This document shows, one piece after another, positions 3,759-39,651 of a stretch of 64,000 nt of DNA (positions are counted from its first letter, which is position 1; each line of letters starts with the position of its first letter). The stretch covers positions 124,001 to 188,000 of the forward strand of contig NZ_JAJNDB010000007.1 of NCBI RefSeq assembly GCF_021026375.1. Reading direction: 5' to 3'. The DNA comes from Actinomycetospora endophytica. GTDB taxonomy: Bacteria; Actinomycetota; Actinomycetes; Mycobacteriales; Pseudonocardiaceae. The notes beneath the pieces are model-generated. The model was not told where the DNA came from, did not search any database, and saw nothing but the letters and a program-made list of their open reading frames with translations. The position numbers were made by a program, and so were the translations under genes.

Positions 3759-3800
3759 AGGGCCCCTCCGGTCGATCTACCCGACCGGAGGGGCCCTTCG
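3759..3800 (+). terminator. Rho-independent terminator of etfBA
   Basis: Perfect 16-bp stem, arms 3759-3774 and 3782-3797 (right arm CGACCGGAGGGGCCCT) with a 7-nt loop, then TTCG. The same CGACCGGAGGG-core recurs in the terminator after gatB. Confidence 0.9.
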
Positions 3801-20827: not shown

Positions 20828-20885
20828 CGACCGGAGGGCCTCTTCGTCCACCTCAGTGGGCGGAGGGGCCCTCCGGTCGTTCACG
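20828..20885 (+). terminator. Terminator after gatCAB
   Basis: Arms CGACCGGAGGGCC (20828-20840) and GGCCCTCCGGTCG (20867-20879) form a perfect 13-bp stem whose 26-nt loop holds a small inner hairpin (CCAC/GTGG). It has the same core as the etfBA terminator. Confidence 0.85.
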
Positions 20886-35426: not shown

Positions 35427-36223
35427 TGCGTCTCGCTCGGATCGCCCATCACGACGGTGTCTCCTTCGCCGCTCTGCAGTCCCCGACGACCGGGGGTGGT
35501 GAACCCACCGCAGGCGACGTCTGCGCGGAGATCGCCGAGCATCCGTTCGGCGACCCGACCTTCACCGGCCGGACCTGGCCGCTCGCCGACGTCCGGCTGC
35601 TCGCGCCGATCCTGCCGTCGAAGGTCGTCTGCATCGGTAAGAACTACGCCGAGCACGTCGCCGAGATGGGCGGCGGCGACGCCCCGGCGAACCCGCTGAT
35701 CTTCATGAAGCCCTCGACGAGCGTGATCGGGCCGGGCCTGCCGATCCTGCGGCCCGCCGACTCGCAGCGCGTCGACTACGAGGGCGAGCTCGCCGTCGTC
35801 ATCGGCCAGCCGTGCCGCGACGTGCCCGAGGCGCGCGCGAAGGACGTCGTCCTCGGCTACACCGTCGCCAACGACGTCACCGCCCGCGACCTCCAGTCGG
35901 CCGACGGCCAGTGGACCCGCGCGAAGGGCTACGACACCTTCTGTCCGCTCGGCCCGTGGATCGAGACCTCGCTCGACCCGTCCGACCTCGCGATCGAGAC
36001 CACGCTGGACGAGGCCACCGTGCAGAAGTCCCGGACGTCGATGCTGATCCACGGGATCGAGAAGCAGATCGCCTACATCAGCCGCGTGATGACGCTGCTG
36101 CCCGGCGACACGATCCTCACCGGCACCCCGGCCGGCGTCGGCCCGATGGTCGACGGCCAGACGGTGTCGGTGACGGTGGAGGGCATCGGGACGCTGACCA
36201 ACCCGGTGAAGGACCGCCCATGA
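35426..36223 (+). CDS. Fumarylacetoacetate hydrolase-family protein
   Basis: 265 residues from GTG 35426. The C-terminal FAH domain begins at about residue 65: KVVCIGKNYAEHVAEMG, FMKPSTSVIG, then the metal-binding VDYEGELAVVIGQPCRDV (E-x-E) and the ANDVTARDLQ block with the usual Asp. IGTLTNPV closes it. Members are hydrolases, isomerases or decarboxylases of 1,3-diketo acids (oxaloacetate decarboxylase and hydroxyheptadienedioate isomerase included). Same place as Rv2993c. It overlaps lysK by ATGA, so the two are translationally coupled. Confidence 0.93.
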   Translation: MRLARIAHHDGVSFAALQSPTTGGGEPTAGDVCAEIAEHPFGDPTFTGRTWPLADVRLLAPILPSKVVCIGKNYAEHVAEMGGGDAPANPLIFMKPSTSVIGPGLPILRPADSQRVDYEGELAVVIGQPCRDVPEARAKDVVLGYTVANDVTARDLQSADGQWTRAKGYDTFCPLGPWIETSLDPSDLAIETTLDEATVQKSRTSMLIHGIEKQIAYISRVMTLLPGDTILTGTPAGVGPMVDGQTVSVTVEGIGTLTNPVKDRP

Positions 36224-37980
36224 GCAGGCGCCGGGGCGGCGGTGGGGCCGAGCAGGAGTCGACCTCGCAGGACTGGGTGGCCACGCTCGCCGACGAGGTG
36301 ATCGCCGCTCACGAGAAGGAGGATCCCGACGGGGCCCGTGCCATCGTGTGCGCCTCGGGGCTCTCGCCGTCGGGCCCGATCCACCTCGGCAACCTGCGCG
36401 AGGTCCTCACCCCGCACCTCGTCGCCGACGAGATCCGCCGCCGCGGCATCGCCTGCGAGCACCTCATCTCCTGGGACGACTTCGACCGCTACCGCCGCGT
36501 GCCGAAGGGCGTCGAGGGCGTCGACGACTCGTGGGCCGAGCACGTCGGCAAGCCGCTCACGTCCGTGCCGCCGCCCCGGGGCAGCGAGTACGCGAACTGG
36601 GCCGAGCACTTCAAGGCCCCGATGATCGACGCGCTCGAGCGGCTCGGCGTGCCGTACCGCGGGATCAGCCAGACCGAGATGTACACCTCCGGCGCCTACG
36701 TCGAGCAGACGCTGCTGGCGATGCGCGAGCGCTCCCGCATCGACGGCGTGCTCGGCCGGTTCCGGACGAGGAAGAACGCCGAGACGGCCGACTCCGACGA
36801 CGACGGCGAGGGTGACGACGGCGTCGATCCCGACGAGGCCCCCTTCGACGAGGATCTGGCTGGCTCGGCGTCGGGGGAGTACTTCCCCTACAAGCCGTAC
36901 TGTGGCGCGTGCGGCACCGACGAGACCGCGATCGTCGCCTACGACGACGCCACCACCGAGATGACGTTCACCTGCGCGTGCGGGTCGTCGCAGACGGTGC
37001 TGCTGCGGGAGTTCACCCGCGGCAAGCTGGTCTGGAAGGTCGACTGGCCGATGCGGTGGGCCTACGAGGGCGTCGACTTCGAGCCCTCCGGGGTGGACCA
37101 CTCGTCGCCGGGCTCGTCGTACGAGGTCGGCGGGCTGCTGGTCTCCGAGATCTTCGGCGGGCGGCAGCCGATCGGCCCGATGTACGCCTTCGTCGGCATC
37201 TCGGGGCAGGCGAAGATGTCGTCGTCGAAGGGCGGCGTCCCGACGCCGTCGTCGGCGCTCGAGGTCTTCGAGGCGCCGCTGCTGCGCTGGCTCTACGCCC
37301 GTCGCCGTCCCAACCAGGCGATCAAGGTCGCGTTCGACGCCGAGCTGCACCGGCTCTACGACGAATGGGACGCGCTCTCGCGCAAGGTGGCTGCCGGGAC
37401 GACGGGTGCCATCGAGACCCTCGGGCACGCCCGGTCGGTCGCGACGGCCGAGCGGACCCTGCCGACGACGCCGCAGCCGGTGTCGTTCCGGACGCTGACC
37501 TCCGTCGTCGACGTGACCACCGGCGACCCCGAGCAGCTCGGTCGGCTGCTGTCGGGTCTGGTGCCGGGCGACCCGGAGGAGCCGGTCACGCTCGACGACC
37601 TGCAGCCGCGGCTGGGCTGCGCCGAGCACTGGGTCGAGCACTACATGCCGGAGGAGTCGCACACGCGCCTCCTGGCGGCGCCCGACACGGCCCTGGTTGA
37701 GTCGCTGGACGACACCGACCGCGAGTCGCTGCGGCTGCTGCTCGACGGGCTGGAGCAGGACTGGTCGCTCGACGGCCTGACCTCGCTCGTCTACGGGGTG
37801 CCCAAGATCCAGGCCGGGCTGCCGATGGACACCAAGCCCACGGACGAGCTCAAGGCTTCGCAGCGACGCTTCTTCGTGCTGCTCTACCGGCTGCTGGTCG
37901 GGTCGGACACCGGCCCCCGGCTCCCGACGCTGCTGCTGGCGGCCGGTCCGGACGCGGTGCGTCGCCAGCTCCGCATGTGA
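36220..37980 (+). CDS. lysK: Lysyl-tRNA synthetase, class I (archaeal type)
   Basis: 586 residues from ATG 36220 (ATGA overlap with the FAH gene). Class I signature HIGH appears as SPSGPIHLGNLRE (H55-L-G-N) and KMSKS as AKMSSSKGG near residue 332. CGACG and FTCACG form a Cys4 zinc ribbon (about 228-256). An acidic stretch (DSDDDGEGDDGVDPDEAPFD, about 190-210) is inserted in the connective region. It charges tRNA-Lys; most bacteria use the unrelated class II enzyme, while class I occurs in archaea and scattered bacteria, some actinomycetes included. In M. tuberculosis gltX occupies this place. The gene ends inside a 44-bp palindrome. Confidence 0.95.
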   Translation: MSRRRGGGGAEQESTSQDWVATLADEVIAAHEKEDPDGARAIVCASGLSPSGPIHLGNLREVLTPHLVADEIRRRGIACEHLISWDDFDRYRRVPKGVEGVDDSWAEHVGKPLTSVPPPRGSEYANWAEHFKAPMIDALERLGVPYRGISQTEMYTSGAYVEQTLLAMRERSRIDGVLGRFRTRKNAETADSDDDGEGDDGVDPDEAPFDEDLAGSASGEYFPYKPYCGACGTDETAIVAYDDATTEMTFTCACGSSQTVLLREFTRGKLVWKVDWPMRWAYEGVDFEPSGVDHSSPGSSYEVGGLLVSEIFGGRQPIGPMYAFVGISGQAKMSSSKGGVPTPSSALEVFEAPLLRWLYARRRPNQAIKVAFDAELHRLYDEWDALSRKVAAGTTGAIETLGHARSVATAERTLPTTPQPVSFRTLTSVVDVTTGDPEQLGRLLSGLVPGDPEEPVTLDDLQPRLGCAEHWVEHYMPEESHTRLLAAPDTALVESLDDTDRESLRLLLDGLEQDWSLDGLTSLVYGVPKIQAGLPMDTKPTDELKASQRRFFVLLYRLLVGSDTGPRLPTLLLAAGPDAVRRQLRM

Positions 37981-38018
37981 ACGAATTTGGTCGTCATGAC
38001 GACCAAATTCGTTCACAT
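37975..38018. repeat. Perfect 44-bp palindrome covering both stop codons of convergent genes
   Basis: Positions 37975-37996 are the exact reverse complement of 37997-38018, with no loop. The right half is TGACGACCAAATTCGTTCAC then AT. The lysK stop (37978-37980) lies in the left arm and the transketolase stop (37994-37996, minus) at the centre. AT-rich ACCAAATTCG within a 73% GC genome is out of character. It could serve as a bidirectional terminator and may be one copy of a dispersed palindromic element. Confidence 0.95.
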
Positions 38019-38926
38019 ACGCCGGAGGCGTCGAGGCCTTGGGCCGCGTCGTGGTCGGCCCGGGTCCCGTAGCGGTGCAGCTCCTCGCGGCGGGTGCCGA
38101 GCATGACCTGCCGGTGCGGACGATCCGCCAGCGCCTCGGCCACCACCCGCGCCGAGGTCCCGGCCAGGTAGGGCTCGACCATCGTCACGGTCGGCGCCGC
38201 CGCGTGCTCCGGGGCGAGCGCATCGACGGCGGCCCGGAGCCCGGCGGCGTCGAACGGACGCGGCGTCGTCGTGTAGAGCACGCTCAGGTCCCGTCCCGAC
38301 CGGGCCACCGCCGTCAGTACGGTATCGAGCATCGGCCCGACCGCGACGACCACGCCCTCGCTGCCCTGCCGGATCGTGACCAGTCCGGGCCCGTGGTGCG
38401 GGGCGGCGTTCGTCGCGTCGGAGAGTCGCACGTAGATCCGGCCCTGCGCGGCGATCGCGTCGCGCACCAGACGGTCGGCCTCCTCGGGATGCCCGGGCAC
38501 GTGGACCGTCCAGCCCGGCAGGGTGTCGATCAGCGCGACGTCCTCGGGGGCCTCGTGCGTCCGTCCGCCCCCGCCGACGTCGTAGGACGCGCCGATCGAG
38601 ACGAGCACCGCCCCGCTGTCCTGGTGCCCGAGGTCGAGCTTGAGCTGCTCGAAGGGGCGCTCGACCGCGAACGGGGCGTACGAGTGGATCACCGGACGCA
38701 GCCCGGCGAGCGCGAGCCCGCCGCCGACCCCGACCATCAGCTGTTCCCGGATACCCACGTTGATCACGCGGTCGGGGTGCCGCGCGGCGAGCGCGGGGAC
38801 CGGGTCGGCCGCGGCGGAGATGTCCGCGAGCACCAGGGCGACGCGTTCGTCCCCGTCGACGGCGTCCGCCGCGGCGTGCAGGAACGCCTCGCGCATGGTG
38901 GCCGGGACGGTGAGGGTGGCGGTCAT
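37994..38926 (-). CDS. Transketolase C-terminal section (split transketolase, subunit B)
   Basis: 310 residues from ATG 38926. It carries the pyrimidine-binding and C-terminal domains: LVLADISAAADPVP, INVGIREQLMVGVGGGLALAGLRPV (catalytic Glu in REQ) and YASYDVGGGGRTHEAPEDV-like ASYDVGGGGRTHE, then the transketolase C domain with VVVAVGPMLDTVL. TGATG overlap with the N-terminal section. Two-gene transketolases act in pentose or specialised sugar pathways. The last codons (VCERIWSS) are spelled by the 44-bp palindrome, so the original C-terminus may have been altered by its arrival. Confidence 0.93.
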   Translation of the reverse strand: MTATLTVPATMREAFLHAAADAVDGDERVALVLADISAAADPVPALAARHPDRVINVGIREQLMVGVGGGLALAGLRPVIHSYAPFAVERPFEQLKLDLGHQDSGAVLVSIGASYDVGGGGRTHEAPEDVALIDTLPGWTVHVPGHPEEADRLVRDAIAAQGRIYVRLSDATNAAPHHGPGLVTIRQGSEGVVVAVGPMLDTVLTAVARSGRDLSVLYTTTPRPFDAAGLRAAVDALAPEHAAAPTVTMVEPYLAGTSARVVAEALADRPHRQVMLGTRREELHRYGTRADHDAAQGLDASGVCERIWSS

Positions 38927-39651
38927 CAGGAGTCCTTCCGCTCGACGCGCGCGACAACGGCGAGGGGCCGGTCGTCGTGCGCGGCGTCCAGGGCGATCTC
39001 GATCGCGTCGTGGTCGCGGCCGTCGACGGTGATCGCCCGCCAGCCCTCGGCCAGGAAGCGCTCGGCGAGGCCGGTCTCGCTCCACGTGCCCGGCCAGCCG
39101 TGGGTCGCGGAGGAGTTGTCGACGACGACCGCGGTGAGGTTCGCGAGGCCGCGTCGCCCGGCGTAGGCGATCGCCTCGTGGTTGGAGCCCTCGTCGAGCT
39201 CGGCGTCGCCGACCAGGACGACGACCCGGGGCTCGCCGTCCGGCCTCGTGATCCGTCGCGCCCGCAGGCCGATCGCGGTCCCGACGGCGAGCGGCAGGCC
39301 GTGACCGAGCGACCCGCTGCCGATCTCGACGCCGGGGATCAGCGTCCGGTCGGGGTGGAGGCCGAGGCGCGAGCCGGGACCGGCCCAGTCCACGAGCTCG
39401 GTGGGGTCGAGGAACCCGTGCGCGGCGAGGACCGCGTAGTACGCCATCGGGCCGTGGCCCTTGGAGAGCAGGAAGCGGTCGCGCGCCGGGTCGGCGGGGT
39501 CCGCCGCATCGACCCGCAGCACGCGGCCGTAGAGGACGTGCAGGACGTCCAGCGTGGAGGTGGCGGCGGCCGAGTGCTTCTCGTCGCCGGTCATCAGCGC
39601 CATCAGCCGGCGCAGCTCGTCGGTGGTGACGGGGGGTCGCACGGTGGTCAT
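38926..39651 (-). CDS. Transketolase N-terminal section (split transketolase, subunit A)
   Basis: 241 residues from ATG 39651 (a TTG-initiated extension of five codons is rejected). It carries the pyrophosphate-binding half of the ThDP site: LSKGHGPMAYYAVLAAHGFL, SLGHGLPLAVGTAIG and the GDAELDEGSNHEAIAYA metal motif (GDxE type). It must pair with the section encoded directly downstream to make an enzyme. The small size and absence of a fused C-half are normal for split actinobacterial transketolases. No sugar-pathway neighbours indicate the substrate, although a galactose module lies 7 kb away. Confidence 0.93.
   Translation of the reverse strand: MTTVRPPVTTDELRRLMALMTGDEKHSAAATSTLDVLHVLYGRVLRVDAADPADPARDRFLLSKGHGPMAYYAVLAAHGFLDPTELVDWAGPGSRLGLHPDRTLIPGVEIGSGSLGHGLPLAVGTAIGLRARRITRPDGEPRVVVLVGDAELDEGSNHEAIAYAGRRGLANLTAVVVDNSSATHGWPGTWSETGLAERFLAEGWRAITVDGRDHDAIEIALDAAHDDRPLAVVARVERKDS

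Follow-up and report, generated by a model that had tools for sequence, protein, structure and literature searches.

A 44-bp palindrome at the lysK/transketolase junction of Actinomycetospora endophytica as a probable copy of a dispersed 40-bp palindromic element

REP/BIME sequences of enterobacteria and pseudomonads are short palindromes with many copies, situated at the ends of genes and in the space between convergent ones, and their spread is tied to RAYT Y1 transposases; to our knowledge, REPs are extragenic. The DNA uptake sequences (DUS/USS), dispersed repeats of about 10 bp, occur as thousands of single copies, often form inverted pairs at terminators, and have species dialects. For a further group of dispersed elements, the Rickettsia palindromic elements (RPE), we know of no transposase.

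In the sections of PMC10969869 that concern them, RPE are about 150 bp long, belong to several families and lie in about half of the cases inside genes, where they are read in frame. Excerpts of PMC6649704 state that the identity of the RPE repeats fades with time, and RPE are also mentioned in part of PMC2635572. The same excerpts of PMC6649704 describe perfect inverted repeats in the genes of Nematomorpha mitochondria, which reach 142 bp per arm in coding sequence, are thought to be actively maintained, and are gained and lost between species. What defines HS-U-lack terminators in the pertinent passages of PMC8269248 is their structure together with the U count, and no common fixed-length sequence enters the definition. 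Parts of an inverted-repeat survey (PMC13155455) were also used for comparison.

Here, we analyze a palindrome in the genome of Actinomycetospora endophytica (G000; other G numbers denote compared genomes). We consider it to be one copy of a dispersed palindromic element resembling REP and RPE, homogenised within each genome, with a probability of roughly 0.6.

The palindrome at the lysK/transketolase junction

The window, i.e., the whole 64-kb stretch of DNA that was analyzed, contains the following features at the junction.

37975..38018, no strand: perfect 44-bp loopless palindrome, a family A copy, equal to its own reverse complement
37977..38016, no strand: 40-bp GTG...CAC unit, common to families A, B and C, with length fixed at 40
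36220..37980, plus strand: class I lysine-tRNA synthetase gene lysK (PF01921)
37978..37980, plus strand: lysK stop codon TGA, in the left arm of the palindrome
37994..38926, minus strand: transketolase C-terminal (pyrimidine-binding) gene (PF02779), ending at the palindrome centre
37994..38017, minus strand: last eight codons (seven sense codons and the stop) of the transketolase C-terminal gene, within the palindrome

An earlier note, made from the window sequence, had described this palindrome as perfect, with AT-rich arms, a lysK stop in the left arm and a transketolase stop at the centre, and all of this was confirmed. The segment is self-complementary at 44 of 44 bases. Its 22 pairs without a loop exceed every other perfect hairpin of the window, the next of which has 16 pairs and a 7-base loop. 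GC content is 41% in the arm and 73.6% over the window as a whole. The lysK gene ends with CGC ATG TGA, of which both the final codon ATG and the stop come from the palindrome, and the transketolase stop occupies 37994-37996. The last eight codons of the latter gene, which the note had viewed as rewritten by the palindrome, indeed lie inside it and read C E R I W S S stop. The copy supplies both stop codons at this junction. The probability of such a palindrome arising in 64 kb at the base composition of the window is about 3e-7, which together with the presence of about 74 copies rules out a chance or single-copy reading.

RNA of either strand is predicted to fold as a hairpin of about 20 pairs, which probably serves as a shared 3' end for both mRNAs; the folding energy is -38.7 kcal/mol (z -8.8). 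In a search of window positions 37000-39000, no Rfam family scored above its gathering score, the best match reaching 31 bits where 90 are needed. Plasmid records that matched the palindrome with its surrounding 201 bases (21 records) contained fragments, none of which spanned more than 37% of the query. The transketolase itself is split in two adjoining genes that overlap by 1 base (window 37994-39651), the N-terminal half being encoded at 38926-39651 next to the pyrimidine-binding half.

To place the junction among relatives, the lysK end was compared in the 17 of 18 genomes that had a match. Transketolase is the convergent neighbour of lysK with a family A palindrome between them in G000 and G014 and with a B-type 40-bp palindrome in G010. 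In G003, G007, G015 and G016 the two genes are also convergent and no hairpin is found between them; in three of these four, the gene caller lets lysK and transketolase overlap by 11 bp. The other ten genomes have a different lysK neighbour, with some other hairpin downstream in three (G001, G012 and G013). According to the note, a single copy and an unchanged C-terminus in transketolase homologues would have spoken against a dispersed element; neither was found, since the family has about 74 copies and both gene ends, that of lysK and that of transketolase, vary among relatives. Its suggestion of a recent origin is not borne out either, since the same junction carries A in G014 and B in G010, and other sites are shared with G010.

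Family A and the wider 40-bp class at gene ends

The 44-bp palindrome has four places in the genome when up to 3 mismatches over 44 bp are allowed, its own site included, and a 26-base part of it gave 27 matches in a pattern search. A covariance model built from 20 copies returned 147 hits, which fall at 74 places of the 7.0-Mb genome. One place is weak (E 0.08), giving 73-74 copies, and the count is a lower bound because scoring was confined to 150 of the 6177 first-look candidates. Of the options offered by the note, that of a dispersed element is borne out by these places. An independent IUPAC pattern with at most 3 mismatches found 54 places, against 0 for its reversed control. The family A consensus is CATGTGARYGRATKTGGTCGYC-NN-GRCGACC..., and its arms co-vary, with 133 double-sided compensated changes compared to 63 in shuffles (73 copies, the weak place C10:312563 being left out). 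Within 989 kb of G000, 142 arm matches fall within known copies, and the other 21 have 2-3 mismatches and no palindromic partner. No lone family A half-site was detected in these 989 kb of the about 7-Mb genome and, with no lone A arm there, no parent transposon with family A ends was seen.

At least two further families, B and C, share with A the 40-bp length, the GTG...CAC tips and a placement mostly at gene ends. In this genome, family B has the form GTGAGCASTAATTGACGYC... and family C the form GTGCGTGCGTTTCCGTG.... Scanning 925 kb of G000, mostly chosen around A copies, gave 86 GTG...CAC 40-mers with at least 16 of 20 pairs and none in the reversed control. Pairs of GTGAGCA and TGCTCAC lying no more than 150 bp apart are exactly 40 bp from tip to tip in 27 of 28 cases in G000 and in 15 of 18 in G010. 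The interior between B tips, which the search left unconstrained, pairs at 9.5 (G000) and 9.1 (G010) of 11 positions, and compensated double-sided changes in family B number 36, compared to 8.9 in shuffles (27 copies).

B-type tips at 40-bp spacing have 183 matches in G000 and are present in all 18 Actinomycetospora genomes, with 2-183 matches each. The other 102 genomes contain one match each in 12 cases and none in 90, and the reversed control matched once, in G072. We estimate that the class has 250 or so copies in this genome. It occurs in all 18 Actinomycetospora genomes searched and has kin in Pseudonocardia and Saccharopolyspora. Among the matches listed from the open-licence PubMed Central literature, no earlier description of 40-bp palindromes in these actinobacteria was found.

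Genomic context was assigned with a home-made gene caller based on codon usage. The 74 family A places comprise 43 between convergent genes, 26 between co-directional genes, 4 inside genes and 1 between divergent genes, whereas 12 control regions, with 203 pairs of neighbouring genes, comprise 34 convergent, 136 co-directional and 33 divergent pairs. The sole A copy called between divergent genes is L057 (G000:C12:108940). Copies of the whole 40-bp class are rarely divergent as well (3 of 96 intergenic copies in the G000 DNA examined). A total of 112 gene ends face A copies, and 109 of these have their stop codon inside the copy or no more than 15 nt from it: 58 use the TGA of CATGTGA, as lysK does, 12 stop elsewhere inside the palindrome, and 39 stop within 15 nt upstream. 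The remaining 3 stop further away. In the same G000 DNA, all 36 co-directional copies of the class lie within -30 to +20 nt of the upstream stop codon, compared to 12 of 27 other hairpins. This hugging of stop codons is tighter than neutral insertion followed by selection needs; selection for a 3'-end function also fits.

Genes flanked by two A copies were considered as carriers of a mobile function and rejected. They are an alcohol-dehydrogenase-like gene and a gene without a Pfam match, and a third pair lies in and at the end of hrpB. The latter (L072) consists of an A copy at the 3' end of hrpB and a second copy in frame, 950 bp apart (G000:C10:544991 and 545941).

A second dispersed hairpin type, which is looped, GC-rich and intergenic, was also observed. 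It has the form AGGGCCCCTYCGGTCGA...TCGACCGGAGGGGCCCT with close variants, does not have GTG...CAC tips, and occurs at window positions 3759-3797 and 20828-20879 and in L105, L108, L111 and L081. Related hairpins are built on TCAGCGATGCGGCGTCGCTGACA or close variants (L121:1232-2699, L122:11469-11529 and L086:2240-2294), and some of them overlap predicted genes.

Shared sites, dialects and in-frame copies in relatives

Among 120 genomes including that of A. endophytica, A-type copies are concentrated in five: G000 (58), Actinomycetospora sp. TBRC 11914 (G010, 52), A. succinea (G011, 14), MAG bin.147 (G014, 11) and A. callitridis (G017, 5). Three of the remaining 115 genomes have one copy and 112 have none. 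A looser A core matched 38 of 297 genomes of the family, ten of which have 10-60 matches each; the named records of A-type matches include, among those listed, Actinomycetospora, Pseudonocardia, Saccharopolyspora and Lentzea. The arm differs between species. It is mostly GTGAACGRATKTGGTCG or GTGAGTGGATKTGGTCG in A. endophytica, TBRC 11914 and MAG bin.147, mostly GTGAGTGATCYGGGTCG in A. succinea and A. callitridis, and mostly GTGAGYGGCGATGGTCG in Pseudonocardia.

In the G010 sequence compared (817 kb with some overlaps, in part selected around G010 copies), a counterpart was found for twelve G000 junctions. A hairpin scan revealed A palindromes at nine of them, a decayed A copy at the C13:147647 junction, a B palindrome at the lysK junction, and no hairpin at one. 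The decayed copy (L083, G000:C13:147647) has nearly the same mismatches in G000 and G010, and this vertical evolution sets it apart from the others. Among 20 distinct G010 copies that match the pattern and have abutting genes, 11 are at gene ends that carry A in G000; the C15:16505 and C2:127349 pairs fall outside this set since their G010 copies miss the pattern. With over half of the tested sites common to both genomes, no recent movement was observed. For the other species, 6 of 85 sites are shared with G000, two of these being among the 3 sites of MAG bin.147.

The shared sites do not have shared sequences. In 11 orthologous G000/G010 pairs, 30.9 of 36 arm positions match, compared to 30.2 in non-orthologous pairs (permutation p 0.10). 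When the decayed copy with its shared mismatches is left out, these values become 30.4 and 30.6 (p 0.70). Of the pair changes in orthologous copies, 15 are double-sided and Watson-Crick in both genomes, 18 are one-sided and 4 are of other types. As orthologous copies resemble each other no more closely than non-orthologous ones do, the sites persist and their sequences turn over, with pairing mostly kept.

Four A copies of A. endophytica are translated in frame, in kdpB, a biotin-carboxylase gene, cydDC and hrpB. All four use the same single open frame (H V N/S x x G R x D D ...), there is coding signal on both sides of each copy, and the host genes carry Pfam domains. In other species, 11 further A copies were called inside genes, all in the same frame, and 7 of these are convincing, including two G010 counterparts of A. 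endophytica copies. The calls L174, L180, L191 and L211 are doubtful because the coding score is poor after the element; the call L184 comes from the complete genome of P. dioxanivorans.

Orthologues were aligned for three of the four host genes. The biotin-carboxylase alignment covers the matches of 10 of 18 genomes: 16 palindrome-derived residues in G000, G010 and G014 take the place of a loop of 13-14 residues in the seven relatives without the palindrome. In hrpB (16 of 17 matching genomes aligned), the palindrome lies in a linker in the same three genomes, and the linker without palindrome is similar in length in most relatives and longer in G001, G003, G015 and G016. This site therefore does not show an insertion, as linker length is similar with and without the palindrome in most relatives.

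The kdpB comparison includes the 15 of 18 genomes with a match. An in-frame 40-bp palindrome is present at the same loop in five of the 15 congeneric genomes, with arms from at least three families: family A in G000, A of the other dialect in G011, a GTGAGCGATC...TATAGCCC type in G004 and, in a weaker form with 15 of 20 pairs, in G006, and a GTGAGCAGTTGGCGCCC... palindrome in G013. It is absent from the other ten, namely four with a short native loop (VVADGSRALG or close, in G005, G002, G009 and G012) and six others. Filled and empty states interleave on a three-protein tree, some supports of which are low. The place of the palindrome aligns with the turn VVEGSRVLG in the solved KdpB structure 6hra, chain B, which we take to be the E. 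coli protein. The boundaries of the palindrome differ between species and native sequence appears replaced. When copies were compared with empty sites, no target-site duplication was seen of the kind that a MITE of an IS element leaves.

Mode of spread and comparison with known systems

If the palindrome is a copy of a dispersed, homogenised element, copies would arrive by replacing a short native stretch, be it through template-switching, through conversion with a second copy as donor, or through the action of an unknown enzyme on the folded hairpin. The lack of a visible target duplication together with the apparent replacement of native sequence favours copying by template-switching or conversion, or an unknown hairpin-handling enzyme. 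Spread driven by RAYT/Y1 was rejected, as the Y1 transposase (PF01797) was found in 0 of 18 genomes by a search that was positive in 5 of 14 control genomes. Copies would survive where they do no harm: 3' ends of genes would tolerate them since either strand of the unit contributes a TGA, and protein loops since a single frame of family A is open. Correction of one arm from the other, together with exchange between copies, would keep the copies palindromic and alike within a genome.

The data may also be read as mobile or self-spreading DNA that is defined by its shape and not by its sequence, with exactly 2 x 20 bases, fixed GTG...CAC tips and an interior of almost any palindromic sequence, and this we regard as possible, although doubtful. 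Here, an unknown enzyme or replication template-switching would recognise the folded hairpin by its length and tips and write it into stop codons and protein loops. Constant rewriting of copies by one another within a genome would lead to species dialects at sites that are conserved.

We consider it unlikely that the copies are lineage-specific bidirectional terminators or hairpins protecting 3' ends, kept by selection and co-evolving with a factor that binds RNA or RNA polymerase, with in-gene copies being accidental. The strong predicted hairpin, the enrichment of convergent pairs with nearly empty divergent ones, the hugging of stop codons and the 11 of 20 G010 sites common to G000 agree with such a role, and 3' ends of the HS-U-lack type are known in Streptomyces clavuligerus, as mentioned in a portion of PMC8269248. 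On the other hand, no T-tract was found after A copies, the 8 nt downstream having on average 0.59 T (maximum 3) where 1.06 are expected. Furthermore, several species have in-frame copies within genes, and G003, G007, G015 and G016 retain the same convergent neighbours at lysK with no hairpin. Mismatches in 67 co-directional copies show no sense-strand asymmetry, with 38 G-U and 34 A-C, but ordinary hairpins with loops of at least 3 lack wobble asymmetry as well (17 and 13), so that this comparison does not discriminate between a role as RNA and one as DNA. Of the bidirectional terminator proposed in the earlier note, a possible role at gene ends stands; the missing T-tract and the copies that are read through inside genes speak against it as a full account. 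Within the dispersed, homogenised element, a 3'-end function at gene ends is a likely secondary use.

Conserved tips, a fixed 40-bp length and symmetry without strand preference would also suit binding sites of a DNA-binding protein. It might be a nucleoid protein or act as a roadblock where polymerases converge, and drift of its specificity from species to species would give the dialects, i.e., a likeness within genomes that differs between species. This reading, which the note had also offered as a protein-binding site, is improbable, since the interiors of A, B and C are wholly different in one genome with length kept, lone A half-sites are absent from 989 kb, and placement is nearly all at stop codons, bar a few copies in open reading frames. 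Finally, that each site is an independent quasi-palindrome perfected by replication template-switching with no spread between sites is hardly tenable and as a complete account refuted: correction of imperfect palindromes is an accepted process (according to excerpts of PMC6649704) and the mismatches resemble raw point mutations, with G-U equal to A-C, yet unlinked copies share sequence, length and tips within a genome, the consensus differs between species, and local correction alone cannot copy between sites. Template-switch correction may nevertheless be the reason for the near-perfect arms.

If the copies are indeed a dispersed, homogenised element, coding palindromes akin to RPE occur in free-living actinobacteria, remote from Rickettsia, and their signature is sharper than that of RPE, length and tips being fixed and the interior free. 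The kdpB loop, with five filled congeners and empty relatives between them, makes both the spread of palindromes and the near-perfection of their arms directly testable. A repeat would also be the source of C-termini and of some internal loops in the proteins predicted for these genomes. For annotation, the copies offer candidate shared 3' ends for convergent gene pairs where U-tract terminators are absent.

Comparison with known systems reveals partial resemblances. Intrinsic U-tract terminators likewise have a strong hairpin just after the stop codon, whereas the hairpins here have no T run directly behind them. The tail-less (I-shaped, HS-U-lack) terminators of high-GC actinobacteria share the strong gene-end hairpin without a U-tract; here, in contrast, there is a shared sequence of fixed length, and some copies are read through inside genes. 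Species dialects of dispersed repeats recall DUS/USS, from which the lack of lone family A arms in the 989 kb examined is a difference. As in Nematomorpha mitochondria, perfect inverted repeats occur inside genes and their presence varies between species, whereas the link to stop codons seen here does not appear in the PMC6649704 passages concerned. With REP/BIME the class has in common that it consists of short palindromes situated at the ends of genes and between convergent ones; in contrast to REP/BIME systems, no Y1 transposase was found in the 18 genomes and some copies are coding. By description, RPE are similar in being dispersed palindromic units with many copies in several families, some read in frame within genuine protein genes. 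Whereas RPE extend over about 150 bp with a conserved peptide of that size, the unit in Actinomycetospora measures 40 bp from tip to tip, and its copies stay near-perfect, lie mainly on stop codons and form species dialects.
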